Below are positions 13,388 to 56,912 of a stretch of DNA of 64,000 nt, one piece after another (the stretch's first letter is position 1; the number at the start of each line of letters is the position of its first letter). The position numbers and the translations under genes are program-made. A model generated the notes under the pieces. It searched no databases. It was not told where the DNA came from and worked only from the letters and a program-made list of their open reading frames with translations. The stretch is from contig NZ_CP021023.1 of assembly GCF_002117005.1 (NCBI RefSeq), forward strand, positions 62,001 through 126,000, written 5' to 3'. The DNA is from Sedimentisphaera salicampi (GTDB lineage: Bacteria; Planctomycetota; Phycisphaerae; Sedimentisphaerales; Sedimentisphaeraceae).

Positions 13388-14815
13388 TCAGCGTTTCTTA
13401 CGCTTCTTTCCGCGAACCTTTACCTTCTTGCGCTTAGACCTTTTCTTCTGCTTCCCAGCTCCGCCCATGGCATTGAACATACTCATATCGCCGCTCAGCA
13501 TTCCCTTCATAGCGCTCATTGAGCCGCCCTCGCCTGAGGCCATCATTTTCATCATATCGCGGCTTCTCTTGAATGTTTTGATAAGCCCGGAAACATCGTT
13601 TACAGTAAGACCGCAACCGGCGGCGATACGCCTGCGCCTTGAGGCGTTCAATACCTCGGGATCTTTTCGTTCGGTGTATGTCATAGAGCGGATTATAGCT
13701 TCGATCCGTTTGAATTCCTTTTCATCAACGTCTAAATCATCCATCTTGCCGGCCATACCGGGGAGCATTTTCATCATGCTCATTATCCCGCCCATGTTTT
13801 TGATTTTAGACATCTGCTTGAGGAAGTCATCGAGGCCGAATTTTCCCTCGGCCATTTTATTTTTGAGCTTGTCTGCTTCTTTTTCATCGTATTCGCTTTG
13901 TGCTTTCTCCACAAGCGATACCACATCCCCCATCCCGAGGATTCTGCCGGCCATTCTGTCCGGATGGAATTTCTGCAGGTCTTCGATTTTCTCGCCAACG
14001 CCTGCGAATTTTATCGGCTTGCCCGTTACAGCCTTAACGCTCAGCGCCGCTCCGCCTCTTGCATCGCCGTCGAGCTTCGTAAGGATCACACCGTCCAGCT
14101 CGAGCCGTTCGTTGAATTCCTTCGCAGAATTAACCGCATCCTGACCAGTCATTGAATCGCAAACGAGATATATTTGGTGAGGCGAGGTGGCTTTGGCCAC
14201 ATTAGAAACCTCGTCCATCAGCTCCTGATCTACGTGGAGCCTGCCGGCGGTATCGAGGATTACCACATCCGCATCGTTTTTCTTTGCGTCTTTGAGTCCG
14301 TTCTTGGCAACCTTTACCGAATCCTTGCTCTCCTCGCAGTACACCGGCACATCAATCTGCTCGCCGAGGGTTCTCAGCTGCTCTATAGCAGCCGGTCTCT
14401 GGAGATCTACGGCCACCATCTGCGGCTTTTTCCCCTCGCTTCTCACGTAGTTTGCCAGCTTGGCGGCAGTGGTTGTTTTACCGCAGCCCTGAAGGCCGGC
14501 AAGCATTATAACTGTTGGCCCTGGGGATACGTAGTATATATCGCTGCCCTCAGGCCCCATGAGCTTTGTAAGCTCATCCTGAACGATCTTGATCAGAACC
14601 TGCCCGGGTTTTAAGCTTTGTACTACCTCCGCCCCGAGCGCAGCCTCGCGAACGTCTTTGCAGAACTGCTTGGCTACCTGATAATTAACATCCGCCTCGA
14701 GAAGAGCCTTGCGAACTTCTCGCATTGCGTCTGAGATGTTAGACTCAGTTATCCTGCCGCGCCCTGAAAGCGACTTAAATACACTGTTGAAACGATCTGT
14801 TAGAGATTCAAACAT
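13388..14815 (-). CDS. ffh: Signal recognition particle protein Ffh (SRP54)
   Basis: A 475-residue SRP GTPase that targets membrane and secreted proteins together with 4.5S RNA and FtsY. The N domain (about 1-90) is followed by the G domain with P-loop GLQGCGKTTTAAKLA, DTAGRLHVD, TKLDGDARGG and the closing GVGEKIEDLQ. The M domain (about 295-440) is rich in Met (IMSMMKMLPGMAGKM) and holds the RNA-binding helix-loop region with SRRRRIAAGCG. A strongly basic tail (KQKKRSKRKKVKVRGKKR) ends the protein. It is the first gene of the operon leading to yraN. No SRP RNA gene was found nearby. Confidence 0.97.
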   Translation of the reverse strand: MFESLTDRFNSVFKSLSGRGRITESNISDAMREVRKALLEADVNYQVAKQFCKDVREAALGAEVVQSLKPGQVLIKIVQDELTKLMGPEGSDIYYVSPGPTVIMLAGLQGCGKTTTAAKLANYVRSEGKKPQMVAVDLQRPAAIEQLRTLGEQIDVPVYCEESKDSVKVAKNGLKDAKKNDADVVILDTAGRLHVDQELMDEVSNVAKATSPHQIYLVCDSMTGQDAVNSAKEFNERLELDGVILTKLDGDARGGAALSVKAVTGKPIKFAGVGEKIEDLQKFHPDRMAGRILGMGDVVSLVEKAQSEYDEKEADKLKNKMAEGKFGLDDFLKQMSKIKNMGGIMSMMKMLPGMAGKMDDLDVDEKEFKRIEAIIRSMTYTERKDPEVLNASRRRRIAAGCGLTVNDVSGLIKTFKRSRDMMKMMASGEGGSMSAMKGMLSGDMSMFNAMGGAGKQKKRSKRKKVKVRGKKRKKR

Positions 14816-15684: not shown

Positions 15685-15790
15685 AGTTTGCCCTGAATGT
15701 TCATTAAATTAGTTGTGCAGGTTCACTGCACGCTCGGCAGCTGGGACTCCCGAAAGCAGGAAAACACGAAAAGGTTGCGAATATTTTCTC

Positions 15791-15869
15791 TTGAATAACG
15801 TTTTTGATTTGATAAAGTGAAAATACTAAAATTGTAATAAAATTTCCAAGCGAAATTAAGGAGCTGAAA
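15791..15869 (+). repeat. Conserved leader repeat, copy 1 of PEP-CTERM array
   Basis: First copy of a 79-86 base leader found directly before four of the five PEP-CTERM genes. It opens TTGAATAACGTTTTTGATTT, continues with GATAAAGT and closes GAAATTAAGGAGCTGAAA before the ATG. TTGAAT and TAAAGT, 16 bases apart, resemble a sigma-70 promoter, and AAGGAG is the ribosome binding site, so each gene may carry its own promoter. Sequence identity continues into the coding region. Confidence 0.8.
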
Positions 15870-16457
15870 ATGAAAAAGATGTTGGTTGTTTTTGCGGTTT
15901 GTTTTGCTGTTTTTAACGCTGAGGGCGCGGTTGATTGGGATATCTATGATGATGCCTCAATTCAGGATGGAGATGTTTATCTCGCCGTAAACATTTATGA
16001 TAACCCCCCTGAACAGACAGTGGTAAATATGACGGGTGGAGACATTTCTCTTTGTTCAATTAACAATTCAGCGACGCTGAATTATAAAGGCGGCGACATA
16101 AGTACTTTACAGGCAAATAACCAAAGCGTTGTTATGTCTGATTCTGTAGATATTCCCACAATGTATTTGTACGAAGAAACACAAGCTTATATCCATAACG
16201 GCAGCTATGGTTCAAGCATCTTTCTTTATGACAACGCAAAAGTGCATATTTATGGGTACAACTTTGATTACAACGAGCTTGTTAGTCCCAATTTATTGAA
16301 TGGACAATGGGAAAATGGTGAGAGCTTTTCTTTAGTTTTTAGAAATTCATACTCTTACAATTCTGATCAAGTAATCCTGCATGAAGTCCCTGAGCCGGCA
16401 ACGGTACTGCTTCTTGTTTCAGCAGGCGGTGTTTTGTATAACAGAAGAAAATCTTAA
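15870..16457 (+). CDS. PEP-CTERM surface protein, array gene 1
   Basis: A 195-residue secreted protein. Residues 1-19 (MKKMLVVFAVCFAVFNAEG) are a signal peptide. The centre is a series of short strands with Gly/Asn turns (VVNMTGGDISLC, then LNYKGGDISTL), as in a beta-solenoid. The C-terminus is VPEPATVLLLVSAGGVLYNR plus RKS, a PEP-CTERM signal: PEP motif, membrane helix and basic end, recognised by an exosortase for processing and surface delivery. No exosortase gene lies in the window. The first 60 residues are almost identical to array gene 3. Function is unknown; family members are usually matrix or surface proteins. Confidence 0.9.
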   Translation: MKKMLVVFAVCFAVFNAEGAVDWDIYDDASIQDGDVYLAVNIYDNPPEQTVVNMTGGDISLCSINNSATLNYKGGDISTLQANNQSVVMSDSVDIPTMYLYEETQAYIHNGSYGSSIFLYDNAKVHIYGYNFDYNELVSPNLLNGQWENGESFSLVFRNSYSYNSDQVILHEVPEPATVLLLVSAGGVLYNRRKS

Positions 16458-16484
16458 AAATTATAAAATAATCCTTTTTTTTTC

Positions 16485-16570
16485 TTGAATAACGTTTTTG
16501 ATTTGATAAAGTAAAAATACTAAAAATGTAAGGTAACTAAAATTTTCCAAGCAAAATTAAGGAGCTGAAA
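16485..16570 (+). repeat. Conserved leader repeat, copy 2 of PEP-CTERM array
   Basis: Second copy of the leader described at 15791, with the same TTGAATAACG start, the TAAAGT box and AAGGAGCTGAAA before the ATG. It is preceded by a T-rich run (16474-16483) that ends the previous gene's 3' flank and may help terminate its transcript. Confidence 0.8.
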
Positions 16571-17146
16571 ATGAAAAAGATGTTGGTTGTTTTTGCGTTT
16601 TGTTTTGCTGTTTTTAATTCTGATGGCGCTGTTGATTGGGATATCTATGATGATGCCTCAATTCAGAATGGAGATGTTTATTCAGCTGTTAATGTTTTCA
16701 GTGATTCTTTTGTTGAAATGACTGGAGGCGGAATAAATATTTTAAAGACGTTTGATACCGCTGAATTTGCAATAATCAGAGGTGATGTTTCAGCTGGAAT
16801 TCAATTATACGATTCGAGCACGGTTAATATTTACGATGGTAATATTTTCGGGTTAACTGCAAATGATGCCAGCACAGTCAATATCTATGGGGGTGGGCTG
16901 GAATATCAATACGGCATCTCTTCTGAAGCTGTAGTTAATTACTTTGTTAGTTCTTATTCTCTTTACGATGCGGGAGGGCAAGGTGTGATAATGAATGGTT
17001 ATTGGAAAGATGGTTCTCCCTTCTCGGTGTCTTTTAGAGATTCTGAAAGCTGGGATAAGGCCAATATTATAATCGTCCCCGAGCCGGCAACGGTATTGTT
17101 TTTCGGCTTAGCGGGCGGTGTTTTGTATAACAGAAGAAAAGCTTAA
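16571..17146 (+). CDS. PEP-CTERM surface protein, array gene 2
   Basis: A 191-residue protein with nearly the same signal peptide as gene 1 and the same start of the mature part (AVDWDIYDDASIQNGDVY). The centre differs and shows a clear period of about 19-20 residues: FVEMTGGGINILK, EFAIIRGDVSAG, TVNIYDGNIFGL, TVNIYGGGLEYQ. This fits one coil of a parallel beta-helix per repeat. It ends VPEPATVLFFGLAGGVLYNR plus RKA, the PEP-CTERM signal. The last 72 bases are almost identical to those of array genes 4 and 5. The ligand or role is unknown. Confidence 0.9.
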   Translation: MKKMLVVFAFCFAVFNSDGAVDWDIYDDASIQNGDVYSAVNVFSDSFVEMTGGGINILKTFDTAEFAIIRGDVSAGIQLYDSSTVNIYDGNIFGLTANDASTVNIYGGGLEYQYGISSEAVVNYFVSSYSLYDAGGQGVIMNGYWKDGSPFSVSFRDSESWDKANIIIVPEPATVLFFGLAGGVLYNRRKA

Positions 17147-17170
17147 AATTTATAATATTATTTTTTTTCC

Positions 17171-17255
17171 TTGAATAACGTTTTTGATTTGATAAAGTAA
17201 AAATACTAAAAATGTAAGGTGATAAAATTTTCTAAGTGAAATTAAGGAGCTGAAA
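17171..17255 (+). repeat. Conserved leader repeat, copy 3 of PEP-CTERM array
   Basis: Third copy of the leader described at 15791, 85 bases, with the same start, spacing and AAGGAGCTGAAA site before the ATG of array gene 3. Confidence 0.8.
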
Positions 17256-17840
17256 ATGAAAAAGATGTTGGTTGTTTTTGCGTTTTGTTTTGCTGTTTTT
17301 AACGCTGAGGGCGCGGTTGATTGGGATATCTATGATGATGCATCAATTCAAGATGGAGATGTTTATCTCGCCGTAAACATTTATGATAACCCCCCTGAAC
17401 AGACAGTGGTAAATATGACGGGTGGAGACATTTCTTTTTGCAATATTTTCGATTCGGCTCAGCTTAATTGCAGCGGCTGCGAGATCAGTTTCTTAGATAC
17501 ATATAACAATTCAGTGGTTTCAGTAAACGCTAACGCAGGCTTAGACTTAATAGATATGTATGACAGCAGCACTGTTTTCCTTCACAACGGAGCTGAAAAT
17601 GTTTCAAACATAAGAATATATAACGATTCTTTGCTGCATATCTATGGCTATTCATTGAAAATTGAGCCTTTATGGGTTGAGGGTTACAGCGTTGATGATG
17701 AATGGTTTACCATCAACTTTCGCAACAGCTTTATCCCGGAAGACCACATAATACTCCATGAAGTCCCCGAACCGTCAACTATACTGCTTTTAGGCTCAGC
17801 ATCAGGAATAGTCGTAAGCAGGCAAAAGAATAAATCATAA
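17256..17840 (+). CDS. PEP-CTERM surface protein, array gene 3
   Basis: A 194-residue protein. Residues 1-60 and their DNA nearly equal those of array gene 1 (IYDNPPEQTVVNMTGGDIS), then the two diverge completely. The centre again has short strand-turn units (VVSVNANAGLDLIDMYDSS, then TVFLHNGAENVSNIRIYNDS). The C-terminal signal is VPEPSTILLLGSASGIVVSR plus QKNKS, a PEP-CTERM motif whose sequence differs from the shared block of genes 2, 4 and 5. Gene 4 follows after only 27 bases without its own leader, so genes 3 and 4 probably share a transcript. Confidence 0.9.
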   Translation: MKKMLVVFAFCFAVFNAEGAVDWDIYDDASIQDGDVYLAVNIYDNPPEQTVVNMTGGDISFCNIFDSAQLNCSGCEISFLDTYNNSVVSVNANAGLDLIDMYDSSTVFLHNGAENVSNIRIYNDSLLHIYGYSLKIEPLWVEGYSVDDEWFTINFRNSFIPEDHIILHEVPEPSTILLLGSASGIVVSRQKNKS

Positions 17841-17867
17841 AAGCATAGAAATTTGGAAGGCGAATAA

Positions 17868-18473
17868 ATGAGAACAAATATAATTGCTTTAATATTTTTT
17901 GTTATAACAGCTTCTGCGTATTCTACCCTTTGGGAAATACAAGAAGATGAGAATATTAACAATTCTGTCTATGACCAAATAAACGTATATAATGAGGCAA
18001 CGTTGGACGTTGAAGGATCTCAAACCGCGGTTTCTTGGATGAGAAGCTATGATTCAAGCATTATTAATCTTTACAATGGAGAAATTTCTACGCTGCATCA
18101 ATATGATTCTTCTGTTTTGAATTTACATGGGGGTAATCCGCAGGGTTGGGAGATGTTCGAGCAAAGTACTGCTCATATTTATGGTGGAGATATCGAATTT
18201 ATTATGATAAACGAATTAACTAACAGCGTAAATATATATGGTTTCGATTTCAATTTTGTACGATCGGGAGGCCAACAGGAATCAGGTTGGCTCTCTGGCT
18301 ATTGGCAAAATGGGCAGGAATTTGAGATTTATTTACGCTATTTGCCTGATGTCTTTCCCGAAGACCCATATTTGGGTACCTCATATATCACCCTTCATGA
18401 AGTCCCCGAGCCGGCAACGGTATTGTTTTTTGGCTTAGCGGGCGGTGTTTTGTATAACAGAAGAAAAGCTTAA
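17868..18473 (+). CDS. PEP-CTERM surface protein, array gene 4 (unlike N-terminus)
   Basis: A 201-residue protein. Its signal peptide (MRTNIIALIFFVITASAYS) and mature N-terminus do not match the other array members, and the conserved leader is absent. The centre has the same style of repeats (IINLYNGEISTLHQYDSS, then VLNLHGGNPQGWEMFEQS). The end, VPEPATVLFFGLAGGVLYNR plus RKA, is identical in protein to genes 2 and 5, and its last 72 bases (18402-18473) are almost identical to theirs in DNA. It therefore appears to be a mosaic that has acquired the common 3' end. GGAAGG serves as the ribosome binding site. Confidence 0.88.
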   Translation: MRTNIIALIFFVITASAYSTLWEIQEDENINNSVYDQINVYNEATLDVEGSQTAVSWMRSYDSSIINLYNGEISTLHQYDSSVLNLHGGNPQGWEMFEQSTAHIYGGDIEFIMINELTNSVNIYGFDFNFVRSGGQQESGWLSGYWQNGQEFEIYLRYLPDVFPEDPYLGTSYITLHEVPEPATVLFFGLAGGVLYNRRKA

Positions 18474-18497
18474 AAATTTATAAGATAATCTTTTTTT

Positions 18498-18582
18498 TTG
18501 AATAACGTTTTTGGTTTGATAAAGTAAAAGTACTAAAAATGTAAGGTAATAATATTTTCCAAGCGAAATTAAGGAGCTGAAA
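18498..18582 (+). repeat. Conserved leader repeat, copy 4 of PEP-CTERM array
   Basis: Fourth copy of the leader described at 15791, preceded by a T run and followed by the ATG of array gene 5. It has a few substitutions (GGTTTG for GATTTG, AAAAGTAC for AAAATAC) but the same ribosome binding site. Confidence 0.8.
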
Positions 18583-19110
18583 ATGAAAAAGATGTTGGTT
18601 GTTTTTGCGTTTTGTTTTGCTGTTTTTAACGCTGAGGGCGCGGTTGATTGGAATATTAACAGCAGTCAATTGATTGAAAATGGGTCTTACGGAAATATTC
18701 GAATATTTGATGGTCAATCGGAGCAAACAATTGTTGAAATGTCTGGAGGGTCCTGTCTTTCTGTAATTACCCATGACACGAGTAAATTTGATCTTCATTC
18801 AGGATCTGCTGATGTAATAACTGTATATGATTCAAGTGCTGTAAATCTCTTTGGCGGGGCTGTAGAATCAGTTTACGTTAATACCGGAATTTTAAATTTG
18901 TATGGATATGATCTCTCAATCCAAAACCATGATGTTTCTAATGGGATTTTTAATTTAACTGGTTATTGGGAAAACGGCGCAGCTTTTGAAATATATTTTG
19001 AAAGAGCATATTTAGACCAAAACACATTTCTCCACGAAGTCCCCGAGCCGGCAACGGTATTGTTTTTTGGCTTAGCGGGCGGTGTTTTGTATAACAGAAG
19101 AAAAGCTTAA
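18583..19110 (+). CDS. PEP-CTERM surface protein, array gene 5
   Basis: A 175-residue protein, the shortest of the array. The signal peptide equals that of gene 3. The mature part departs early (AVDWNINSSQLIENGSYGNI) and has fewer strand-turn units (IVEMSGGSCLSVITHDTS, KFDLHSGSADVITVYDSS, AVNLFGGAVESVYVNTG). It closes with a WENGAAFEIYF strand also recognisable in genes 1, 2 and 4, and with the common VPEPATVLFFGLAGGVLYNR plus RKA signal. Members differ mainly in the number and sequence of solenoid-like coils. Confidence 0.9.
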   Translation: MKKMLVVFAFCFAVFNAEGAVDWNINSSQLIENGSYGNIRIFDGQSEQTIVEMSGGSCLSVITHDTSKFDLHSGSADVITVYDSSAVNLFGGAVESVYVNTGILNLYGYDLSIQNHDVSNGIFNLTGYWENGAAFEIYFERAYLDQNTFLHEVPEPATVLFFGLAGGVLYNRRKA

Positions 19111-19225
19111 AAATTTATAAGAGAAGATGTTTCAAAATTTGGACGGCAGTTTTAGGTGGGCTGCTTGGCATATAGACCGGCAGGAAATCATAGCCGCCTG
19201 TCATATCTATAAATTCCCGCTGCAA

Positions 19226-19287: not shown

Positions 19288-22200
19288 TTACTGCTTATCG
19301 CATTCCATATTAGCGATATTTTCAAGCAGGCAGAATTTCCTCTTGGCGTCTTTAGAGCCTTCTTGCATCATCTTTTCAGCTGCCTCAGGATTGCTCTTCA
19401 TCAGCACCTTCCAGCGGTTTTCGCCCTTGGCGAATTCATCGAATCCGATAGTAGGCGCTTTGCTGTCGAGCTTGAGCGGGTTCTTGCCTTCAGAGGCGAG
19501 GTCAGGATTGAATCTGTAGAGAGGCCAGTGGCCGCTGTTTACAGCCTTTTTCTGCTCGTCGAGCCCGCAGGTCATATTGATGCCGTGAGCGATACAGTGT
19601 GAGTATGCGAGGATGATGCTCGGGCCGTTGTATGCTTCTGCTTCAACGAACGCCTTCACCATCTGATTCGGATTCGCTCCCACTGCCACCTTGGCAACGT
19701 ATATTCCGCCGTAGGTCATTGAGATCATACCGAGATCTTTCTTCGGCATCTGCTTTCCGCCTGCGGCAAACTTGGCCACAGCACCCAGCGGCGTAGATTT
19801 AGACATCTGCCCGCCTGTGTTGGAGTAAACCTCTGTATCAAGCACGAGCAGGTTCACATCGCTTCCGCTTGCAAGCACATGGTCAACACCGTGGCTGTCG
19901 ATATCGTATGCCCAGCCGTCGCCGCCGAGAATCCATACGCTCTTATGTACGAGGTAATCAGCAAGCGTTGTTATCTCTTTGCCCAGCTCGCCGCAGCCCT
20001 CGCAGGCAGCCTTGAGCTTCTTAACTCTCGCCCGCTGGTCTTCAATGCCGGATTGGTCTTTCGTGTAAACGTTTGCTTTGATCTGCTCAGCGAGCTCTGA
20101 ATCAACGCAGCCGTTTTCTACTGCCGTATCGAGCTTCTCTATTGCCTGCTGCTTGAGGCGGTCTGCTGTAAGACGCATACCCATACCGAATTCGGCATTG
20201 TCTTCGAATAAGCTGTTAGACCATGCCGGCCCGTATCCGTCAGCCCTCTTCGTGTAAGGTGTGGTTGGCAGGTTTCCGCCGTATATAGATGAGCAGCCGG
20301 TAGCATTTCCGATTACCGCACGGTCGCCGAAGAGCTGAGAGAGCAGCTTAACATAAGCTGTTTCGCCGCAGCCTGCGCAAGCTCCGCTGAATTCAAACAG
20401 CGGCTCAACAAACTGACTTCCCTTAACAGAAGCAACTTTGTATTTATCAGGATCGGTGTTAGGCAGATTCAGGAAGAAGTCCCAGTTTTCTGCTTCTGAA
20501 TCGCGAAGCGGTTCCTGATGCTCCATATTGATTGCCTTCTTGCCTTCGATTTCCTTGCTCTTGCCCGGGCAGTTCTCAACGCATGCCCCGCAGCCTGTGC
20601 AGTCTTCCGGAGCTACCTGAACTGTAAACTTCATGCCCTTGAGGTCTTTGCCCTTGGCATCAACGCTCTTGAATGTCTCAGGTGCGTTTTTCAGATTGTC
20701 TTCTTCGTATGCCTTAACGCGAATAGCCGCATGCGGACACACCAGCGAACACTGGCCGCACTGAATACACAGTTCCGGCTCCCATACAGGGATGTTTACA
20801 GCAATATTGCGTTTCTCGTATTTGGTTGTTCCTGTGGGGAATTTCCCGTCCACAGGCATCTTGCTCACCGGCACGCTGTCGCCCTTGCCGGAGAGAATCG
20901 GTGCAAGCACTTCCTTAACGAATTCAGGTGCGTCATCCGGTACAACCTGCGCCATCTCTTTCTTGCTTGTTGCATCAGAGGGCACGTTAACCTTTTGAAC
21001 GCTGTTTACAGCAGCATCTACTGCATCAGAGTTCATCTGAACGACTTTTTCGCCCTTCTTGCCGTAAGTCTTCTTGATAGCGTCTTTGATTGCATCAATC
21101 GCTTTTTCAGCAGGTATAACTTCGCTGATCTTGAAGAATGCTGTCTGCATTATTACGTTGATTCTCGCACCGAGCCCGAGCTTCTCTGCAATGCCGATAG
21201 CGTCGATTACGTAGAAATTAAGCTTCTTGTCTATAATCTGCTGCTGCACCTGCTTGGGCAGTGTGCACCATACATCAGAGGCATCATGTGAGCTTGTCAG
21301 CAGGAATGTTGCTTCGTCTTTGGCGTTGCTGAGCATATCATACTTCTCAAGGAAGCTTGGGTTATGACAGGCCACAAAATCCGCTTGGCTGATAAGATAT
21401 GGCTTTCTCAGAAGGCTTTTGCCGAAGCGAAGGTGAGATACTGTTACAGCACCGGCCTTCTTGGAATCGTAAACGAAGTAGCCCTGGGCGTAGTTATCTG
21501 TGAGTGAGCCGATGATCTTGATTGAGTTTTTGTTTGCTCCTACAGTACCGTCAGACCCGAGGCCGTAGAACATTGCCTCGAACGCATCGGATTTGAGGTT
21601 GAATGATGGATCAAAGTCAACGCTCTTATTTGTAACATCGTCTTCAATTCCCACAACAAAGCTGTTGATCGGCTCTTTGAGGTCGAGGTTTGCAAATACT
21701 CCCTTGACCATTGCCGGCGTGAATTCTTTAGAGCCAAGTCCGTAGCGTCCTCCCACTGTAACAGGATAATCCTTGAATTCAGTGAGTCCTTCAGACATTG
21801 CCTCGCCTATAGCTGTGCGAACATCCACGTAAAGCGGTTCGCCAACAGAGCCCGGCTCTTTTGTTCTGTCGAGAACGGCAATCTTCTTAACTGTTTTCGG
21901 CAGGGCGTTGATGAAGTGTTTAACGCTGAAAGGCCGATAGAGACGCACTTTCAATACGCCCACTTTTTCCCCGGCTTCGGACATCTCTTCTACAGTTTCG
22001 TGTACTGTATCAGCGCCTGAGCCCATAACGATAATAACCTTCTCAGCGTCCTCTGCGCCCACATAGTCAAACAGCTTGTATTGGCGCCCTGTAACTTCAT
22101 AAAACTTGTCCATAGCCTTCTGAACTATGGCCGGAGCAGCATTGTAGTATTTGTTTACAGTCTCACGCCCCTGGAAATAAACATCAGGATTTTGGGCAGT

Positions 22201-22851
22201 ACCAGAGATTACAGGATGATCCGGACTGAGGCCTCTTTGCCTGTGCTCGCGTACTTTGTCATCATTTATAAGAGCCTTCATATCATCAAGAGCAAGTTCT
22301 TCAACCTTCTTGATTTCGTGGCTCGTACGGAAACCGTCGAAGAAGTGTACGAATGGAACTCTTGATTCAAGCGTTGAAGCCTGAGCAATCAGAGCCATAT
22401 CCATAACTTCCTGAACAGAATTGGAGCAGAGCATTGCAAAGCCCGTCTGGCGGCAGGCCATCACATCCGAGTGGTCTCCGAAAATGCTCAGCGCCTGGCA
22501 TGCAAGAGATCTGGCCGAAACATGGAAAACTGTCGGCAAGAGCTCGCCGGCAATCTTGTACATATTCGGGATCATTAAAAGAAGGCCCTGAGAAGCGGTG
22601 AATGTGGTTGTAAGTGCGCCTGTCGCAAGAGCACCGTGGACAGCTCCAGCTGCTCCGCCTTCTGACTGCATCTCAGTTACCGAGGGGACTGAACCCCAGA
22701 TATTTTTTTGGCCGGCTGCTGATTTTGCGTCAGAAATCTCACCCATGGGCGAGGATGGGGTGATCGGATAAATCGCAATCACCTCGTTGGTAGCATGTGC
22801 TACGTGTGCCGCAGCAGTGTTACCGTCTATAGTTACCATTTTTCTTGACAT
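19288..22851 (-). CDS. nifJ: Pyruvate:ferredoxin (flavodoxin) oxidoreductase
   Basis: A 1187-residue single-chain enzyme, the usual length of the homodimeric PFOR. It converts pyruvate and CoA to acetyl-CoA, CO2 and reduced ferredoxin in anaerobic metabolism. Visible parts are the N-terminal pyrimidine-binding domain (GNTAAAHVAHATNEVIAIYP), the transketolase C-like and gamma regions, and two 4Fe-4S motifs (CIQCGQCSLVCP and CTGCGACVENCP). A Cys pair near CAGCGETAY ligates the third cluster. The thiamine diphosphate region is GDGWAYDIDSHG with VYSNTGGQMS. It stands alone with its own terminator. The presence of PFOR supports an anaerobic lifestyle. Confidence 0.97.
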   Translation of the reverse strand: MSRKMVTIDGNTAAAHVAHATNEVIAIYPITPSSPMGEISDAKSAAGQKNIWGSVPSVTEMQSEGGAAGAVHGALATGALTTTFTASQGLLLMIPNMYKIAGELLPTVFHVSARSLACQALSIFGDHSDVMACRQTGFAMLCSNSVQEVMDMALIAQASTLESRVPFVHFFDGFRTSHEIKKVEELALDDMKALINDDKVREHRQRGLSPDHPVISGTAQNPDVYFQGRETVNKYYNAAPAIVQKAMDKFYEVTGRQYKLFDYVGAEDAEKVIIVMGSGADTVHETVEEMSEAGEKVGVLKVRLYRPFSVKHFINALPKTVKKIAVLDRTKEPGSVGEPLYVDVRTAIGEAMSEGLTEFKDYPVTVGGRYGLGSKEFTPAMVKGVFANLDLKEPINSFVVGIEDDVTNKSVDFDPSFNLKSDAFEAMFYGLGSDGTVGANKNSIKIIGSLTDNYAQGYFVYDSKKAGAVTVSHLRFGKSLLRKPYLISQADFVACHNPSFLEKYDMLSNAKDEATFLLTSSHDASDVWCTLPKQVQQQIIDKKLNFYVIDAIGIAEKLGLGARINVIMQTAFFKISEVIPAEKAIDAIKDAIKKTYGKKGEKVVQMNSDAVDAAVNSVQKVNVPSDATSKKEMAQVVPDDAPEFVKEVLAPILSGKGDSVPVSKMPVDGKFPTGTTKYEKRNIAVNIPVWEPELCIQCGQCSLVCPHAAIRVKAYEEDNLKNAPETFKSVDAKGKDLKGMKFTVQVAPEDCTGCGACVENCPGKSKEIEGKKAINMEHQEPLRDSEAENWDFFLNLPNTDPDKYKVASVKGSQFVEPLFEFSGACAGCGETAYVKLLSQLFGDRAVIGNATGCSSIYGGNLPTTPYTKRADGYGPAWSNSLFEDNAEFGMGMRLTADRLKQQAIEKLDTAVENGCVDSELAEQIKANVYTKDQSGIEDQRARVKKLKAACEGCGELGKEITTLADYLVHKSVWILGGDGWAYDIDSHGVDHVLASGSDVNLLVLDTEVYSNTGGQMSKSTPLGAVAKFAAGGKQMPKKDLGMISMTYGGIYVAKVAVGANPNQMVKAFVEAEAYNGPSIILAYSHCIAHGINMTCGLDEQKKAVNSGHWPLYRFNPDLASEGKNPLKLDSKAPTIGFDEFAKGENRWKVLMKSNPEAAEKMMQEGSKDAKRKFCLLENIANMECDKQ

Positions 22852-31335: not shown

Positions 31336-33198
31336 ATGCTGATGGTTACAGATGTTGTAGAAATTGCAGTGATAATGGCCTATCTGGTCATTGTGATTAT
31401 GCTCGGCTGGCTTGGTTACACTAAAACCAAAACCGCCTCGGATTTTATGCTGGCAGGCAGGGGTACTCATCCCTTCGTTATGGCTATGAGCTACGGAGCC
31501 ACATTCATCTCTACAAGCGCAATTGTCGGCTTTGCCGGCGTAGCGGGTATGTTCGGGATGGGGGTGCTTTGGCTGGTATTCCTGAATATATTTGTGGGTA
31601 TATTCATTGCCTTCGTTTTCCTCGGTGAGAGAACTCGTCATATGGGGCACGTTCTCAATGCCCATACCTTCGCAGAGCTGCTCGGCAGGCGGTACAACAG
31701 CAAAGCAGCACAGGTTTTTTCCGGGATTATAATAAGCCTGTTCCTGCCTCTTTATGCAGCGGCGGTTTTTATCGGTGCATGTGAGTTTATAACTGCCCAT
31801 TTCGGCATATCCTATCACCTTGCATTATTGATTTTTGCTGTGATAGTGGCTTCTTATGTGGTAACAGGCGGGCTGAAGGGCGTGATGTACGTTGATGCGA
31901 TGCAGGGAACTATAATGACCGTCTGTATGATAACAATGCTTATCCTCTGCTATAAGATGGTAGGCGGGGTTGCTGAAGGCCATGCCCAGCTTACAGAGAT
32001 GTCTGATCAGGTGTTCGTTGGTTTCAAGGCGATTGGTCATCAGGGCTGGACAGAGATGCCCAAATTCGGCTGGGGAGACAGCCAATATGATCTGTGGTGG
32101 ATTCTTGTATCGAGCATAATCTGCGGAGTAGGTTTCGGCGTGCTTGCACAGCCCCAGCTTACGGTTCGTTTTATGACAGTACGCAGTAAAAGGGAGCTCA
32201 ACAGGGGCGTTCTTATCGGCGGACTGTTCATTCTTCTTATACCAGGCACGGCATACGTTGTGGCAAATATGTCGAACGTTTACTTCAATAAATATGAAAC
32301 TATTACAGGCCAGCTGCTCTCTCGTACTGAAAGGGCGGATGTTATAGCGAAGAAAACAAGGGATGTGGAAAAAACGATTCCCTGCAGCCTCCTCCATATT
32401 GATGAAGACGGTGATAAAAAAGCGGATTTCCATGTTATTGAGAAAGGTCTCGGGAAGGCCTCTGCAATAATGCCGAAGGCGGAAGTAACCGAAATGGAAA
32501 ACGGTATGATTCAGGTTAAGCCGCGCGGAACCGCCTTTAAACGTGCCCTCACGCAGACAAGAAACGGCCGCTGGATGCTGAATGCAGACAGCGTAATACC
32601 TAATTATATCCGCTCAGCGATGCCCACGTGGTTTTCTCTGCTTTTCCTTATTACACTGCTCTCAGCGGGTATGAGTACGCTCTCAAGCCAGTTCCATACG
32701 CTTGGAAGTACATTTGCGCATGATGTATTCCGAAAGCTTAGAAACAAAGAAACCAGCAGTGTAAAGGTTACAAGGACTAGCATACTTGTAGGCATTATAA
32801 TCGCTATGATGCTCAGCCTGTATGCAAGAGGCGGGTTTATCGTAGCGAGGGCTACTGCGATTTTCTTCGGCCTTTGCCTCTCCTCGTTTCTGCCTTCGCT
32901 GGTAGGGGGGCTGTTTTTCCGCAGAATGACAAAGCCCGCTGCTCTGAGCTCTATGGCCGCCGGCTTCGGCGTTACTGTATTCTGGCTTCTTTTCGTTAAG
33001 GCCAAGGAGGCCGGAGCGATAGGCCTTGTTCAGCACATCACAGGCGGCGAATCTTCCATACTCGCAGGCTATCCAAACTGGCCTAATGTGGATCCGTGCT
33101 TTGTTGCTCTGCCGATCTCAGTGATCACTGCTGTAGTTGTGGCAGCATTCACAAAGGCGCATACAAGCGAAGAGCTCGAAAAGTGCTTTGCAGGATAG
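31336..33198 (+). CDS. Sodium:solute symporter (SSS family), copy 1
   Basis: A 620-residue membrane transporter with about 13 helices. It starts MLMVTDVVEIAVIMAYLVIV and has the SSS features GRGTHPFVMAMSYGATFIST and VVTGGLKGVMYVDAMQG (the GGLKAV-like sodium solute signature). Substrates of the family are sugars, sugar acids, amino acids and others; none is shown here. A soluble insertion of about 113 residues (315-428) interrupts the helices and contains IDEDGDKKADF, with Asp at 356, 358, 360 and 364 as in a calcium loop. ATG 31336 is chosen for AAGGAAA upstream and because it matches copy 2 exactly. Copy 2 follows 159 bases later. Confidence 0.93.
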   Translation: MLMVTDVVEIAVIMAYLVIVIMLGWLGYTKTKTASDFMLAGRGTHPFVMAMSYGATFISTSAIVGFAGVAGMFGMGVLWLVFLNIFVGIFIAFVFLGERTRHMGHVLNAHTFAELLGRRYNSKAAQVFSGIIISLFLPLYAAAVFIGACEFITAHFGISYHLALLIFAVIVASYVVTGGLKGVMYVDAMQGTIMTVCMITMLILCYKMVGGVAEGHAQLTEMSDQVFVGFKAIGHQGWTEMPKFGWGDSQYDLWWILVSSIICGVGFGVLAQPQLTVRFMTVRSKRELNRGVLIGGLFILLIPGTAYVVANMSNVYFNKYETITGQLLSRTERADVIAKKTRDVEKTIPCSLLHIDEDGDKKADFHVIEKGLGKASAIMPKAEVTEMENGMIQVKPRGTAFKRALTQTRNGRWMLNADSVIPNYIRSAMPTWFSLLFLITLLSAGMSTLSSQFHTLGSTFAHDVFRKLRNKETSSVKVTRTSILVGIIIAMMLSLYARGGFIVARATAIFFGLCLSSFLPSLVGGLFFRRMTKPAALSSMAAGFGVTVFWLLFVKAKEAGAIGLVQHITGGESSILAGYPNWPNVDPCFVALPISVITAVVVAAFTKAHTSEELEKCFAG

Positions 33199-33357: not shown

Positions 33358-35220
33358 ATGCTGATGGTTACAGACGTTGTTGAAATTGCCGTGATAATGA
33401 CTTATCTGGTTTTGGTTATTATGCTCGGCTGGCTTGGTTACACTAAAACAAAAACTGCTTCGGATTTTATGCTCGCAGGCAGGGGAACTCATCCATTTGT
33501 TATGGCTATGAGTTACGGAGCCACATTCATCTCTACGAGTGCGATTGTAGGCTTTGCAGGTGTTGCCGGAATGTTCGGGATGGGCGTGCTTTGGCTTACG
33601 TTTCTAAATATTTTTGTAGGTATATTTGTAGCTTTCGTTTTTCTCGGCGAGAGAACACGTCATATGGGGCACGTACTCAACGCCCATACCTTCGCTGAGC
33701 TTCTCGGCAGACGATACAGCAGCAAGGCGGCGCAGGTTTTCTCCGGCATTATCATCAGCCTCTTTTTGCCGCTTTATGCCGCTGCGGTTTTTATCGGTGC
33801 ATGCGAGTTTATATCGGCGCATTTCGCAATATCCTACCATCTTGCATTGCTGCTTTTTGCTGTTATTGTAGCCTCATACGTGGTAACGGGAGGCCTCAAG
33901 GGTGTTATGTATGTTGACGCAATGCAGGGAACCATTATGACTGTCTGCATGATCACGCTGCTCATTCTTTGCTACAAGATGGTAGGCGGGATAACAGAGG
34001 GACATACCCAGCTTACCGAGATGTCTGATCAGGTGTTCGTCGGGTTCAAGGCAATTGGCCATCAGGGCTGGACAGAGATGCCCAAATTCGGCTGGGGAGA
34101 CAGCCAGTACGACCTCTGGTGGATTATGGTTTCCAGCATAATCTGCGGCGTAGGTTTCGGCGTGCTTGCACAGCCCCAGCTATCGGTTCGTTTTATGACA
34201 GTACGCAGTAAAAGAGAGCTCAACAGGGGTGTACTTATCGGCGGTTTGTTTATATTGCTCATCCCGGGAACTGCATTTGTTGTGGCCAATCTTTCAAATG
34301 TTTATTTTAATAAATACGAAACAATCACAGGCCAGCTGCTTTCACGTACTGAGAGGGCGGATGTTATAGCGAAGAAAACAAGGGATGTGGAAAAGACTAT
34401 TCCCTGCACCCTTCTGCATATAGATGAAGACGGCGATAAAAAGGCAGATTTCAATGTAATTGAGAAAGGTCTCGGTAAGGCGGCAGCTATTATGCCGAAA
34501 GCGGAAGTAAAAGAGCTCGAAAACGGGTTTATTCAGGTTAAGCCCCGCGGCACCGCTTTCAAACGCGCTCTCACGCAGACTAGGGACGGTCGCTGGATGC
34601 TGAATGCAGACAGCGTAATACCAAACTTCATTCGCTCAGCAATGCCCACATGGTTTTCTCTCCTTTTCCTTATTACATTGCTCTCAGCGGGTATGAGTAC
34701 GCTCTCAAGTCAGTTCCATACGCTTGGAAGTACATTTGCGCATGATGTATTCCGAAAGCTTAGAAACAAAGAAACCAGCAGTGTAAAGGTTACAAGAACA
34801 AGCATTCTGGTGGGCATTATAATTGCTATGATGCTCAGCCTGTATGCAAGAGGCGGGTTTATCGTAGCGAGGGCTACTGCGATTTTCTTCGGCCTTTGCC
34901 TCTCCTCGTTCCTGCCTTCGCTGGTAGGGGGGCTGTTTTTCCGCCGAATGACAAAGCCCGCTGCTCTGAGCTCTATGGCCGCCGGCTTCGGCGTTACTGT
35001 ATTCTGGCTTCTTTTCGTTAAGGCCAAGGAGGCGGGAGCGATAGGCCTTGTTCAGCACATCACAGGCGGCGAATCTTCCATACTCGCAGGCTATCCAAAC
35101 TGGCCTAATGTGGATCCGTGCTTTGTCGCTCTGCCGATCTCAGTGATCACTGCTGTAGTTGTGGCAGCATTCACAAAGGCGCATACAAGCGAAGAGCTCG
35201 AAAGATGTTTTGCGAAATAA
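33358..35220 (+). CDS. Sodium:solute symporter (SSS family), copy 2
   Basis: A 620-residue paralogue of the gene at 31336, colinear without gaps and differing at few residues (for example MTYLVLV for MAYLVIV, FISAHFAIS for FITAHFGIS). It carries the same large soluble insertion with the Asp-rich loop at 356-364. The ATG is preceded by AAGGGGAAA. DNA similarity to copy 1 is patchy: the last 400 bases or so are nearly identical, while upstream parts differ at many third positions, which suggests gene conversion. Substrate preference may differ only through the few changed residues. Confidence 0.93.
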   Translation: MLMVTDVVEIAVIMTYLVLVIMLGWLGYTKTKTASDFMLAGRGTHPFVMAMSYGATFISTSAIVGFAGVAGMFGMGVLWLTFLNIFVGIFVAFVFLGERTRHMGHVLNAHTFAELLGRRYSSKAAQVFSGIIISLFLPLYAAAVFIGACEFISAHFAISYHLALLLFAVIVASYVVTGGLKGVMYVDAMQGTIMTVCMITLLILCYKMVGGITEGHTQLTEMSDQVFVGFKAIGHQGWTEMPKFGWGDSQYDLWWIMVSSIICGVGFGVLAQPQLSVRFMTVRSKRELNRGVLIGGLFILLIPGTAFVVANLSNVYFNKYETITGQLLSRTERADVIAKKTRDVEKTIPCTLLHIDEDGDKKADFNVIEKGLGKAAAIMPKAEVKELENGFIQVKPRGTAFKRALTQTRDGRWMLNADSVIPNFIRSAMPTWFSLLFLITLLSAGMSTLSSQFHTLGSTFAHDVFRKLRNKETSSVKVTRTSILVGIIIAMMLSLYARGGFIVARATAIFFGLCLSSFLPSLVGGLFFRRMTKPAALSSMAAGFGVTVFWLLFVKAKEAGAIGLVQHITGGESSILAGYPNWPNVDPCFVALPISVITAVVVAAFTKAHTSEELERCFAK

Positions 35221-52041: not shown

Positions 52042-54435
52042 ATGAAAAGAAGCTTGCTTCTAACAATGTTTCTGGCGGCGCAGTTATTTTTGCTGCAGTC
52101 GCTTGCCGTAGGCAGCACTGTTGCCTACTGGCGTTTCGAAGGCGGTACATCCGATGGAGACCCCATCCTGCACGGAGACGCGGCCGACGGAGATTTTTAT
52201 CCGGCGATAGTTGACAGTTCCGGAAACGGCAACGCCCTTTCTGTATGGCACGAAGGCGCGCACATTTACAGCACGGAGGTTGGATTCACCGAAGTACCTC
52301 AAACTGGGGCATCCAATCAGTTCAGTGCTAAGAACAATACCGGCTTCCCCGGAATGTGGACTCAAACAGGCTCTCAAATTAGCAATATGAGCCCGGCTGA
52401 GTTTACTATCGAGGCAACCGTAAGGCTCGAAAACGGCGGCTATCGCTGTATAGTCGGTCGAGACAGCTACGGCACTTCACCGCACAACCCTGACCTTGCA
52501 GCACTTTATCTTCAGGCTACCCCTGGAAACGGCCTTGCGATAAAATTCTGCGATGTACAGGGTTTTTGGCATGATGCTATTTCAGAGGGCGGAGTGATAG
52601 AAACTTACGATTTTGGCACTAATCCTTCTGGTGCAGGCATTCCGTTCTACAGCATAGCGGCAGTTAGCGACGGCGAATACCTTTCGCTCTATCTTTACAA
52701 CCACGACAGCCCTGAAGAAGGCTACAGGCTTATTGCTCAGGAGAATATGCTCGAAGAAACCGAGAGCACAAATACTGCCCTTACAGCCGGCGCCGGAGAC
52801 GGCGGAGACTGGGACGCAGGTAACTGGACAGTAACAAGAGGTCTTTACGGCGGCGGTCACGGAGATCGTGCTTGGGGTTTTGTTGATGAAATCAGAATCA
52901 GCGATTCAGCCCTTAGAGTTACAGATTTCCTCCAGGGCCCAACACCCTACAACGGTGATGTTGCTCAGCAGTCCGATCCTGTTAACGGCGATGTTGATGT
53001 TACATTCAGCTGGGACGCTCCGGGCGAGGATGCCTCTGGAGACGGTTCAAATGCAGTTGAGCCCGATCTTGTAGATCAGTATGTTTTCGTTAGCTCAGGC
53101 AATGAAGAAGATCCCGAGCTGTACTACGCAGGCGCAACTGGCGTTGACCCGGGCACAGCAGATCCTGCATCTTCATTTGGCCCGGTTGATCTCAACTACG
53201 ACAGCACCTATCAGTGGGCAGTAGTGGGCGTTATGGACGGATATCAGCAGAGCCTCACTCCAGGAGTCAGCACGCTTGCAGATGCAGACCCGAACAACAA
53301 CATTCACGGGCCTGTCTGGGAGTTTGAGTCTATGGCTTCTGTTCCGATAATCGATGAAGACCCCGGCTATGATGTTGTTGCAGATGGCGAAGATGCTTCA
53401 CTGATTGTTGAGGTAACAAGTGTTACCGCGCCATCATTCCAGTGGTTCAAGTCTGAGGATCAGGCAAATGATACACCTGAAGATGATGCTGCTGTAAGCG
53501 ATCCTGATGTAACACTTGATATTGCTCAGGACGGCGAAAGCTACACCTGCACAATGACTGTTCCAGCTGCAGCATTTGCAGACGAAGGATATTACTACTG
53601 CGAAGTTTCAAATGAAAGCGCAGCTTCAGCAGTTTCACAGGCCGGCGAGATTGAGATCGAAAAGCTGGTTAACTGGTACGAATTTGAGAATAACATTATG
53701 GATTCTCAGGGCACAAACCACGGCGTTTCAATGAGAACTGATCCAAACGCTCCGTTTGATTATGCATCAGGAATGGTTGGACAGGCTATTTCTCTCAATG
53801 CCGACGGTGTAGGCGATTCATTCGAAATAGACCAGTCTGTAAAGGCAAACTTCACTATTGAGATGTGGGTTAAGACAACAGGCGATTCTCCAGGAACCGA
53901 CGGCTGGTATAACGGCTTAGGCCTTGTTGACGGCGAACAGAACGGACAAGTTGACGATATGGGGACAGCCCTGCTCGACGGCAAATTTGCTCTGGGAATC
54001 GGTGATTACGACGGCGAAATGCAGATGACGCTTAAGTCTGAATCAGACATCAACGACGACACCTGGCATTACTGCGTTGCAACACGCAACTATGAGACAG
54101 GCGATATGAAGGTTTATGTTGACGGCGTGCTTGAGGCCTCTTTAAGCGGAGCCACAGGGCTGAAAGATGAGCCTGAAACACTTCGAATCGGAGCATTGCA
54201 TACCGGTATGAATTTCTTCCCCGGACTGATCGATGAGCTCAAGCTCTACAACTACGAGCTTTCTGAGGTAGAAATTGCCGATAACTATACTTCTCTAACT
54301 GGCGAGTCTGTTTGCCTTACCTCTCAAGCACCTGATAAAGGCCTTGATGTAAATGATGACTGCCAGATTGATATGGCTGATTTCGCCGGCCTTGCTGCCG
54401 AATGGCTCACTAGCGGCATTTTCCCAGTTCAGTAA
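52042..54435 (+). CDS. Secreted multi-domain LamG/Ig protein with dockerin-like tail, paralogue A
   Basis: A 797-residue secreted protein. Signal peptide is 1-24 (LFLLQSLAVG). Domains are LamG/concanavalin-like 1 (about 27-300, starting VAYWRFEGGTSDGD), a fibronectin-like segment (about 305-435, VTFSWDAPGEDASGDGSN), an Ig-like segment (about 440-545, FQWFKSEDQ and YYYCEVSNES) and LamG 2 (about 548-755, WYEFENNIMDSQGTNHG). The tail is LDVNDDCQIDMADFAGLAAE, a single dockerin-like calcium loop and helix. No catalytic domain is seen, so it is a binding or structural protein for glycans. Paralogue B follows 86 bases later with the same layout. Confidence 0.9.
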   Translation: MKRSLLLTMFLAAQLFLLQSLAVGSTVAYWRFEGGTSDGDPILHGDAADGDFYPAIVDSSGNGNALSVWHEGAHIYSTEVGFTEVPQTGASNQFSAKNNTGFPGMWTQTGSQISNMSPAEFTIEATVRLENGGYRCIVGRDSYGTSPHNPDLAALYLQATPGNGLAIKFCDVQGFWHDAISEGGVIETYDFGTNPSGAGIPFYSIAAVSDGEYLSLYLYNHDSPEEGYRLIAQENMLEETESTNTALTAGAGDGGDWDAGNWTVTRGLYGGGHGDRAWGFVDEIRISDSALRVTDFLQGPTPYNGDVAQQSDPVNGDVDVTFSWDAPGEDASGDGSNAVEPDLVDQYVFVSSGNEEDPELYYAGATGVDPGTADPASSFGPVDLNYDSTYQWAVVGVMDGYQQSLTPGVSTLADADPNNNIHGPVWEFESMASVPIIDEDPGYDVVADGEDASLIVEVTSVTAPSFQWFKSEDQANDTPEDDAAVSDPDVTLDIAQDGESYTCTMTVPAAAFADEGYYYCEVSNESAASAVSQAGEIEIEKLVNWYEFENNIMDSQGTNHGVSMRTDPNAPFDYASGMVGQAISLNADGVGDSFEIDQSVKANFTIEMWVKTTGDSPGTDGWYNGLGLVDGEQNGQVDDMGTALLDGKFALGIGDYDGEMQMTLKSESDINDDTWHYCVATRNYETGDMKVYVDGVLEASLSGATGLKDEPETLRIGALHTGMNFFPGLIDELKLYNYELSEVEIADNYTSLTGESVCLTSQAPDKGLDVNDDCQIDMADFAGLAAEWLTSGIFPVQ

Positions 54436-54521: not shown

Positions 54522-56912
54522 ATGAGTAAAAAATTACTTTTAACAGTATTCTTTGCGGCGCAGATATTCCTTCTGCAGTCGCTTGCGGTAGGCGAAACTA
54601 TTGCCTATTGGCGTTTTGAAGAAGGCCCAGCAGACGCTCAGGTTCTCCACGGGGCTGGCGAAGGTCAATTCGCTCCGGATATACCTGATGCTTCCGGTAA
54701 TGGCAATGACCTTTCGGTATGGAACGAGTCGTTCGCAGGATATGGTTTCAGAAGCGAAGTCGGCTATGATACCGTCCCATACACTGGGCAGGCAAACAAC
54801 TTCAGCGTTAAAAATACAGGCGGCTCGCCAGGTATGTTCACTCAAACCGGCTCTCAGATCAGCACTATCGAGCCGTCAGAGTTTACAATTGAGGCCACCT
54901 TCAGGCTTGAAAACGGCGGTTATCGCGGCATCATCAACAGAGACAGCCAAGGCAGTGTAACAGGAGATGCTGCGCTTTCAGCTCTTTATTTTCAGGCTAT
55001 TCCGGAGAACGGCGTTGCAATAAAATTCTGCGATGTTCAGGGCTACTGGCATGATGCTATCTCAGAAACAGGCGTTATAGAAACCTATGACTGGGGAACA
55101 AACCCCTCTGGTGCAGGCGTTCCTTTCTACAGCATGGCAGCAGTGAGCGATGGCGAATTTCTTTCGCTGTATCTCTACAACCATGATATGCCCGAGGAAG
55201 GCTATAAGCTTGTTGCTCAGGAGAATATGCTCGAAGAGACAGACAGCACAAACACCGCTCTCACATCTGGTACTGGAGACGGCGGAGACTGGGATGCAGG
55301 TAATTGGACTGTAGGAAGAGCTTTATTCAATGGCGGACACGTTGACCGTGCATACGGCTATATTGATGAGGTAAGGATCAGCAATTCTGCCCTAAGGATA
55401 ACAGATTTGCTTCAAGGCCCAACACCTTACAATGGAGGCGTTTCTCAGGAATCAGACCCTGCAAACAGCGATGTAAATGTTACTTTCAGCTGGGATGCTC
55501 CGGGCGAGGATTCATCTGGAGACGGTTCAAATGCTGTTGAGCCGGACCTTGTAGATCAGTATGTTTTCATTAGCTCAGGCGATGAAGAAGACCCTGTGCT
55601 TTACTATGCAGGAGCAACTGGCTCAGACCCGGGCACAGACAACCCGGCATCTTCCTTTGGCCCTGTTGACCTCAGTTACGATACTTCATATCACTGGGCA
55701 GTTGTTGGCGTTATGGACGGTTACGAGCAAAGCCTCACTCCGGGCGTCAGCACCCTTGCAGATGCTGACCCGAATAACAACATACACGGGCCTGTCTGGG
55801 AGTTTGATGCAATGGCATCTGTACCTGTTATTGATGAGAACCCGGAATATCAAGTCGTCGCAGACGGCGAGGATGCCTCGTTCACTGTAGAGGTAACAAG
55901 CGTTACTGCCCCTTCATTCCAGTGGTATAAATCTGAAGATCAGGCAAGCGATACCCCTGAAGACGACACCGCACTGAATGAGCCGGAGGTAACTCTGGAT
56001 ATTTCTCAGCACGGCACAACGTATGACTGCACTATGATCTTACCAGCAGCCGCTCTTGCTGATGAAGGCTACTACTACTGCGAAGTTACAAACGAGAGCT
56101 CCGTTTCGGCATTTAGCGATGCCGCCCAGCTCGAAATTGAAAGGCTTCTGCACTGGTACGAATTCGAGAACAATATCATGGATTCGCAGGGAACAAATCA
56201 CGGCGTTTCAATGAGAACTGATCCAAATGCTCCATTCGATTATACAGAGGGTATGGTAGGAGATGCTATCTCTCTGAATGCCGAGAGCGTTGGCGATTCA
56301 TTCGAAATCGATTGGACATTGAAGTCTAATTTCACAATTGAAATGTGGGTTAAAACCACTGCAACTCCGCAGGGCGGAGACAACTGGTGGGAAGGCGCCG
56401 GCCTTGTTGACGGCGAGCTGCCCGGATGGTCAGATGATTTAGGGGCTGTTTATCTCGACGGCAAATTTGCCCTCGGCGTAGGCGATCCTGATGACGGGAA
56501 TATTACCCTTAAATCAAATACCGATTTGAATGACGGAACCTGGCACTATTGCGTTGCTACCCGTGATTATCAAACCGGTGAGATTAAGGTATTTGTTGAC
56601 GGTGTTCTCGAAACCGAAACTGTTGCTCCTGCCGGCCTGAAACAAGGCGGGGATAACATTCGGATTGGTGCTATTCAAACCGGCAGCAATTTCTTCAAAG
56701 GACAGCTTGATGAAGTTAAGATTTATAACTATCAGCTCTCTGAGCTTGATATAGCTCAAAAATACACCACAGTAACTGGTGAAACAGTTTGTGTTGCTTC
56801 TCAGCGTCCGGATGAAGGCCTTGATACAAACAACGACTGCCAAATCAATATTGATGATTTTATGGTTATGGCATCTGAATGGCTTGTAAGCGGGATCTAT
56901 CCTGCAGACTAA
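54522..56912 (+). CDS. Secreted multi-domain LamG/Ig protein with dockerin-like tail, paralogue B
   Basis: A 796-residue paralogue of the gene at 52042 with the same order: signal peptide (FFAAQIFLLQSLAVG), LamG 1 (AYWRFEEGPADAQVLHGAG), fibronectin-like, Ig-like, LamG 2 (LHWYEFENNIMDSQGTNHG) and dockerin-like tail (LDTNNDCQINIDDFMVMASE). Many blocks are identical to paralogue A. The first LamG is closer to that of the GH43 protein at 57130 in places (EEGPADAQV, SVWNESF). AGGAGA precedes the ATG. A strong terminator follows at 56945, so the sigma-led transcript may end here. Confidence 0.9.
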   Translation: MSKKLLLTVFFAAQIFLLQSLAVGETIAYWRFEEGPADAQVLHGAGEGQFAPDIPDASGNGNDLSVWNESFAGYGFRSEVGYDTVPYTGQANNFSVKNTGGSPGMFTQTGSQISTIEPSEFTIEATFRLENGGYRGIINRDSQGSVTGDAALSALYFQAIPENGVAIKFCDVQGYWHDAISETGVIETYDWGTNPSGAGVPFYSMAAVSDGEFLSLYLYNHDMPEEGYKLVAQENMLEETDSTNTALTSGTGDGGDWDAGNWTVGRALFNGGHVDRAYGYIDEVRISNSALRITDLLQGPTPYNGGVSQESDPANSDVNVTFSWDAPGEDSSGDGSNAVEPDLVDQYVFISSGDEEDPVLYYAGATGSDPGTDNPASSFGPVDLSYDTSYHWAVVGVMDGYEQSLTPGVSTLADADPNNNIHGPVWEFDAMASVPVIDENPEYQVVADGEDASFTVEVTSVTAPSFQWYKSEDQASDTPEDDTALNEPEVTLDISQHGTTYDCTMILPAAALADEGYYYCEVTNESSVSAFSDAAQLEIERLLHWYEFENNIMDSQGTNHGVSMRTDPNAPFDYTEGMVGDAISLNAESVGDSFEIDWTLKSNFTIEMWVKTTATPQGGDNWWEGAGLVDGELPGWSDDLGAVYLDGKFALGVGDPDDGNITLKSNTDLNDGTWHYCVATRDYQTGEIKVFVDGVLETETVAPAGLKQGGDNIRIGAIQTGSNFFKGQLDEVKIYNYQLSELDIAQKYTTVTGETVCVASQRPDEGLDTNNDCQINIDDFMVMASEWLVSGIYPAD

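Follow-up and report, generated by a model that had tools for sequence, protein, structure and literature searches.

Rhs/CdiA C-terminal tip displacement and integron gene cassettes combine a constant delivery or anchor part with exchangeable cargo. In Anaplasma, one msp2 expression site is fed by silent pseudogene copies, and donors close to the expression site are used more (PMC2789410). PEP-CTERM proteins present a further modular system, in which the tails are more alike within than between species, a pattern attributed to the expansion of a modular domain in particular lineages, and many of the proteins have no orthologues in close relatives (Haft et al. 2006, PMC1569441). These proteins are numerous, mostly unassigned in function and among the fastest-changing of their genomes; so far, the origin of many unrelated bodies on one anchor has been put down to “paralogous expansion of a module”. 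Here, we compare a tandem PEP-CTERM array and its sister clusters with these systems.

Results

A tandem array of five PEP-CTERM genes

In the window, by which we mean the whole stretch of 64,000 nucleotides analysed, the ORF list contains five intact PEP-CTERM ORFs on the forward strand, which span 15870–19110 and are flanked by ffh (13388–14815, minus strand) and a pyruvate:ferredoxin oxidoreductase gene (19288–22851, minus strand). All five proteins match the PEP-CTERM model TIGR02595 (21.6–23.7 bits, cut-off 16) and carry the C-terminal PEP motif, hydrophobic stretch and basic end; matches to Pfam PF07589 lie below its cut-off. The N-terminus is hydrophobic by sequence, as read without a signal-peptide predictor, and a helix is predicted at 4–14. 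The GC content of the array is 36%, compared with 46% for the window. The host genome is complete (3.19 Mb, single contig) and contains 57 PEP-CTERM genes above the TIGR02595 cut-off, together with one exosortase match (PF09721, 200.4 bits, cut-off 25.7). The array consists of the following parts.

15790–15869, + strand: leader of gene 1 (80 nt, common non-coding block), 87–89% identical to the leaders of genes 2, 3 and 5
15870–16457, + strand: gene 1, PEP-CTERM protein of 195 aa; first 60 codons in common with gene 3
16386–16457, + strand: tail block of gene 1, resident type, 86–87% identical to those of genes 2, 4 and 5
16484–16570, + strand: leader of gene 2 (87 nt)
16571–17146, + strand: gene 2, PEP-CTERM protein of 191 aa
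17075–17146, + strand: tail block of gene 2, resident type; 22 of 23 codons the same as in genes 4 and 5
17075–17329, + strand: junction repeat copy A (tail 2, spacer, leader 3 and signal peptide 3)
17170–17255, + strand: leader of gene 3 (86 nt)
17256–17840, + strand: gene 3, PEP-CTERM protein of 194 aa; 5′ block resident, tail different
17735–17900, + strand: non-resident junction (divergent gene 3 tail, 27-nt gap, divergent gene 4 start)
17868–18473, + strand: gene 4, PEP-CTERM protein of 201 aa; signal peptide divergent, tail resident
18402–18656, + strand: junction repeat copy B (tail 4, spacer, leader 5 and signal peptide 5)
18497–18582, + strand: leader of gene 5 (86 nt)
18583–19110, + strand: gene 5, PEP-CTERM protein of 175 aa
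19039–19110, + strand: tail block of gene 5, the same as that of gene 4 at 23 of 23 codons

Runs of 8–9 T lie directly ahead of three common leaders (16475–16483, 17161–17168 and 18491–18499) and could be terminator tails or slippage-prone tracts; promoter and terminator scans gave no excess over shuffled sequence.

Two other tandem pairs occur in the window. The genes at 31336–33195 and 33358–35217 encode transporter-like proteins of 620 aa (sodium:solute symporter by eye) and are about 79–94% identical over most of their length and 96–99% identical over the last 500 bases, an alignment that looks like local gene conversion. The genes at 52042–54432 and 54522–56909 encode secreted proteins of ~800 aa, with a patchy identity of about 60–90% per 100 bases.

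Near-identical ends and divergent centres of the array genes

The sequence-only reading of this locus had described a constant–variable–constant layout, and our comparison agrees with it in each part. The leaders said to be common to four of the five genes, those of genes 1, 2, 3 and 5 (80, 87, 86 and 86 nt), are non-coding and 87–94% identical pairwise. The 72-nt 3′ blocks of genes 2, 4 and 5, described as almost identical, differ by at most one coding base (99–100% identity); gene 1, which was thought to carry this block in part, is 86–87% identical to them, and the block of gene 3 only 61–62%. The claimed likeness of genes 1 and 3 over their first 180 coding bases also holds, in that the first ~57–60 codons are ~98% identical, with one amino-acid and about three base differences, and then diverge abruptly. 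Gene 4 begins 27 nt past gene 3, and its leader and signal peptide differ from those of the other array genes. The centres, reported as strongly different, show a pairwise DNA identity of 43–52%.

In line with this layout, the synonymous comparison of blocks and centres that had been proposed as a check clearly separates the two. The same-codon fraction is 0.96–1.00 in the tails of genes 2, 4 and 5 (22–23 of 23 codons), whereas in the centres it is 0.22–0.45 at conserved residues, with 0.32 expected from codon usage. Judged by these codon fractions, the array centres are old and synonymously saturated and the ends are young. Synonymous divergence is sharply unequal between blocks within one gene pair, as in segmental gene conversion, and uniform divergence along the array paralogues is excluded.

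The similarity ends at differing positions, specifically at about codon 22 in gene 5, codon 37 in gene 2 and codon 60 in genes 1 and 3. Additionally, and beyond what the sequence-only reading had described, the two junction repeats (17075–17329 and 18402–18656) are direct and cross gene boundaries, with 93% identity along their 255 nt. Genes 3 and 4 complement each other, with a resident start and a foreign tail followed by a foreign start and a resident tail, and the two genes together occupy one interval bounded by two resident junctions. When the whole complete genome was searched, the leader block and the full tail block were confined to the array; outside it, only a 21-nt core of the tail block was matched. 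The non-resident junction (17735–17900) has only partial matches of ~50 nt elsewhere in the genome, to other array tails.

The bodies of the five genes are distantly homologous members of one family (E 1e-42 to 1e-7 when compared with each other by blastp). This homology, together with young ends and saturated centres, is in keeping with an old duplication in tandem, after which each centre would have diverged at its own locus under relaxed or diversifying selection, only leader and tail being subject to gene conversion and no body being moved in the array. Such a history would also give the pattern seen in the window array alone. However, the abrupt edges at three positions speak against it, and the foreign start and resident tail of gene 4, following the resident start and foreign tail of gene 3, require more than conversion of the ends.

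Exchange of bodies and centres in related clusters

Between the ribosome-binding site and the PEP codons (GTCCCCGAGCCGGC), the gene at position 2176519 of genome G000 and a gene of genome G002 have a DNA identity of 95.7%. Past the PEP codons, their tails agree at 7 of 13 codons, and each tail is closer to those of its own unrelated neighbours (20 of 20 and 13 of 16 codons). Because core proteins of the two genera are 74–76% identical, a body identity of 95.7% implies that the body moved between lineages, or that both lineages received it. Between G005 and G013, which belong to two families, a body is 82.5% identical while the tails agree at 2 of 12 codons and match their local neighbours at 11 of 16 and 14 of 15 codons. 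A further gene of G002, whose body matches G001 at 60%, agrees in its tail with G001 at 3 of 11 codons and with an unrelated neighbour at 16 of 19.

In G069, two adjacent relatives of the array gene family have centres that are identical at 495 of 511 bases, whereas outside the centre the identity falls to 85 of 150 bases in the leader, 56 of 97 in the 5′ coding part, 23 of 37 in the other flank and 57 of 72 in the tail. By these base identities, the centre has evidently been copied between two neighbours that kept their own ends. Movement of a centre in the same gene family counts against divergence in place with conversion of the ends only, and we regard that history of the array as unlikely. 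Such exchanges of bodies and tails, seen both in sister clusters and among relatives of the array gene family, together with the contrast in codon sharing within the array, support the earlier suggestion that recombination swaps parts of these genes.

As a separate observation, a PEP-CTERM module of two genes is present in G002 in three dispersed copies (L237, L238 and L239). The copies are about 95–97% identical along ~4.5 kb, which points to a module that was duplicated as a whole or is mobile.

Tail DNA follows the neighbourhood

Tails of neighbouring and distant genes were compared in pairs with a tail amino-acid identity of at least 0.7 and non-homologous bodies (blastp E>0.01). Among the 57 PEP-CTERM genes of the host genome, the same-codon fraction of the tails is 0.95 for neighbours versus 0.39 for distant pairs (permutation P≤0.0002). 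Divided by tail identity, distant pairs share 31% of codons at 0.70–0.85 and 53% above 0.85, the latter value being pushed up by one gene that lies 160 kb off and carries the tail of the 2169 kb cluster. In that cluster (2169–2177 kb), eight genes have one tail version; two of them are mutually homologous, and the one of these two that was scanned has an FGE-sulfatase-like domain. The eight also include several unrelated bodies. The common tail DNA sets in at the PEP codons and extends beyond the stop codon into a common heptamer tract. Gene pairs at 662 kb and 2297 kb have tail DNA in common within the pair, each in its own version. The tail version is specific to the cluster, which speaks against a constraint on this DNA across the genome.

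Degenerate heptamer tracts, (ACTTAxA)n, stand behind most tails of the 2169–2177 kb cluster (L061), and a shorter tract stands behind the tail of one G002 cluster gene. The same host cluster contains a transposase-like ORF (IS4-like by eye; L061:6239–7462), and a closely similar ORF is found in the congener (L081:5063–6286), ~9 kb from the oxidoreductase gene.

The neighbour effect recurs within the order: it is also present in G002, G005 and G030 (P 0.0002–0.0012); in G013 it is strong in one cluster (14 of 15 codons), the genome by itself falling short of significance, and clusters in G005 (L175), G030 (L185) and G056 show little or no tail sharing. The comparison clusters elsewhere were chosen for closely spaced PEP-CTERM genes, and the cross-genome tallies are thus a non-random sample that gives no frequency estimate. 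Solitary orthologues in G000 and G001 are about equally diverged in body and tail.

Two sources of the pattern were ruled out: genome-wide purifying selection on tail DNA, as tail DNA differs from cluster to cluster, and an assembly artefact, as the genome is a single contig. Simple tandem duplication under uneven selection would leave the ends constrained by their function as promoter, signal peptide and sorting signal and the centres free to change, and the ends are indeed functional, given the TIGR02595 matches and the exosortase in the genome. Nevertheless, constraint on the protein preserves neither synonymous codons nor a leader outside the reading frame, distant genes with similar tail residues reach only 0.31–0.53 of same codons against the 0.95 of neighbours, and tail DNA is specific to each cluster. 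Near-identical ends and saturated centres in the same genes therefore contradict simple duplication, which we consider very improbable.

Structure and homologues of the bodies

The predicted structure of the array centre is rich in β-strands, with a pLDDT of about 80–93 over most of its length. A Foldseek search of the PDB gave nothing significant (best E 0.37) and a Pfam scan of the centres no convincing match; a solenoid fold is plausible from the predicted model. Close relatives of array gene 3 were found neither in GTDB contigs nor in viral contigs, and GTDB contigs likewise held none of one body from the 2169–2177 kb cluster. The congener G001, the only other genome of the genus compared, is without the array, and the genes that flank the array sit 82 kb apart there, so that the history of the array is not readable by synteny.

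Discussion

Taken together, these findings suggest that, in clusters of exosortase-anchored genes, segmental homologous recombination decouples the anchor and the leader from the displayed body, an explanation that we consider likely, and this exchange acts on an evolutionary scale. Under this explanation, the array encodes a small group of exported surface proteins, anchored through the exosortase and with β-rich, probably solenoid centres. Their leader/signal-peptide block and PEP-CTERM tail block would evolve apart from these centres, through gene conversion and unequal crossing-over among adjacent genes and the occasional import of foreign bodies. The ~255 bp direct repeats at the junctions would supply homology on either side of each body, such that a body could be substituted or multiplied and the promoter, the secretion signal and the anchor left in place. 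Recombination tracts that end inside the constant blocks would replace either the ends, giving a homogenised anchor and leader, or the body, giving a new display. Genes 3 and 4, with a foreign junction between resident junctions, are what would be expected if one exchange had delivered a two-gene segment. We infer that the window array itself has undergone body exchange beyond the homogenisation of its ends; the exchanging machinery is presumably ordinary RecA-type recombination, and selection for surface diversity may stand behind the outcome.

More tentatively, the PEP-CTERM clusters of Sedimentisphaerales could be body-exchange platforms. Incoming bodies of exported proteins, some of them from other genera, would be joined in frame to a leader/signal block on one side and a sorting tail on the other, both resident, with the short conserved PEP-codon DNA (GTCCCCGAGCCGGC type) and the spacer as recombination edges, and a single exosortase would anchor a surface repertoire under continual renewal; we offer this wider reading as a possibility somewhat short of an even chance.

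The tail DNA reveals a mechanism that is checkable in any PEP-CTERM-rich genome, as tails track the neighbourhood and bodies do not. Whole-gene trees and orthology of PEP-CTERM proteins blend two or three histories. The array pattern looks like a natural way to place new proteins on an existing cell-surface anchor.

Like the array, Anaplasma msp2 has constant 5′ and 3′ ends and a variable centre changed by gene conversion (PMC2789410), and the sequence-only reading had accordingly likened the locus to antigenic or phase-variable cassette systems. This analogy is not supported. Unlike msp2, every array gene is intact and four of the five have their own leader; in place of the single expression site of msp2 and vlsE, the same leader lies upstream of these four genes, as known here from sequence alone. 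Outside the array, the search of the whole genome found neither the leader nor the full tail in any silent partial copy, and inspection of the ORFs in the 14.8–19.3 kb interval by eye identified no recombinase. It is very improbable that antigenic or phase variation actively rearranges the array as a population grows. The junction repeats of ~255 bp and the T runs ahead of three leaders might speak for such a system; against it stand intact ORFs with no silent cassettes, no single expression site and no adjacent invertase identified, and centres far too different for recent mutual exchange. The antigenic reading thus amounts to a likeness of layout.

The decoupling of ends from body that we favour also differs in form from Rhs/CdiA tip displacement and from integrons: no integrase site or orphan-tip organisation is seen, and in the array genes the cargo lies in the centre, between constant parts. 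The PEP-CTERM/exosortase repertoire described by Haft et al. (PMC1569441) shares with the array a short C-terminal sorting module on dissimilar exported proteins. Found in the array and its sister clusters, and not in that account, are tail DNA common to neighbours with non-homologous bodies, body exchange that ends at the PEP codons, and common leader blocks. A search of the open-access literature for PEP-CTERM with gene conversion, recombination or mosaic structure, judged mostly by title and abstract, yielded nothing relevant among the matches listed, and the neighbour-locality of the tails and the exchange of bodies at the tail edge appear to be new features of this modular system.
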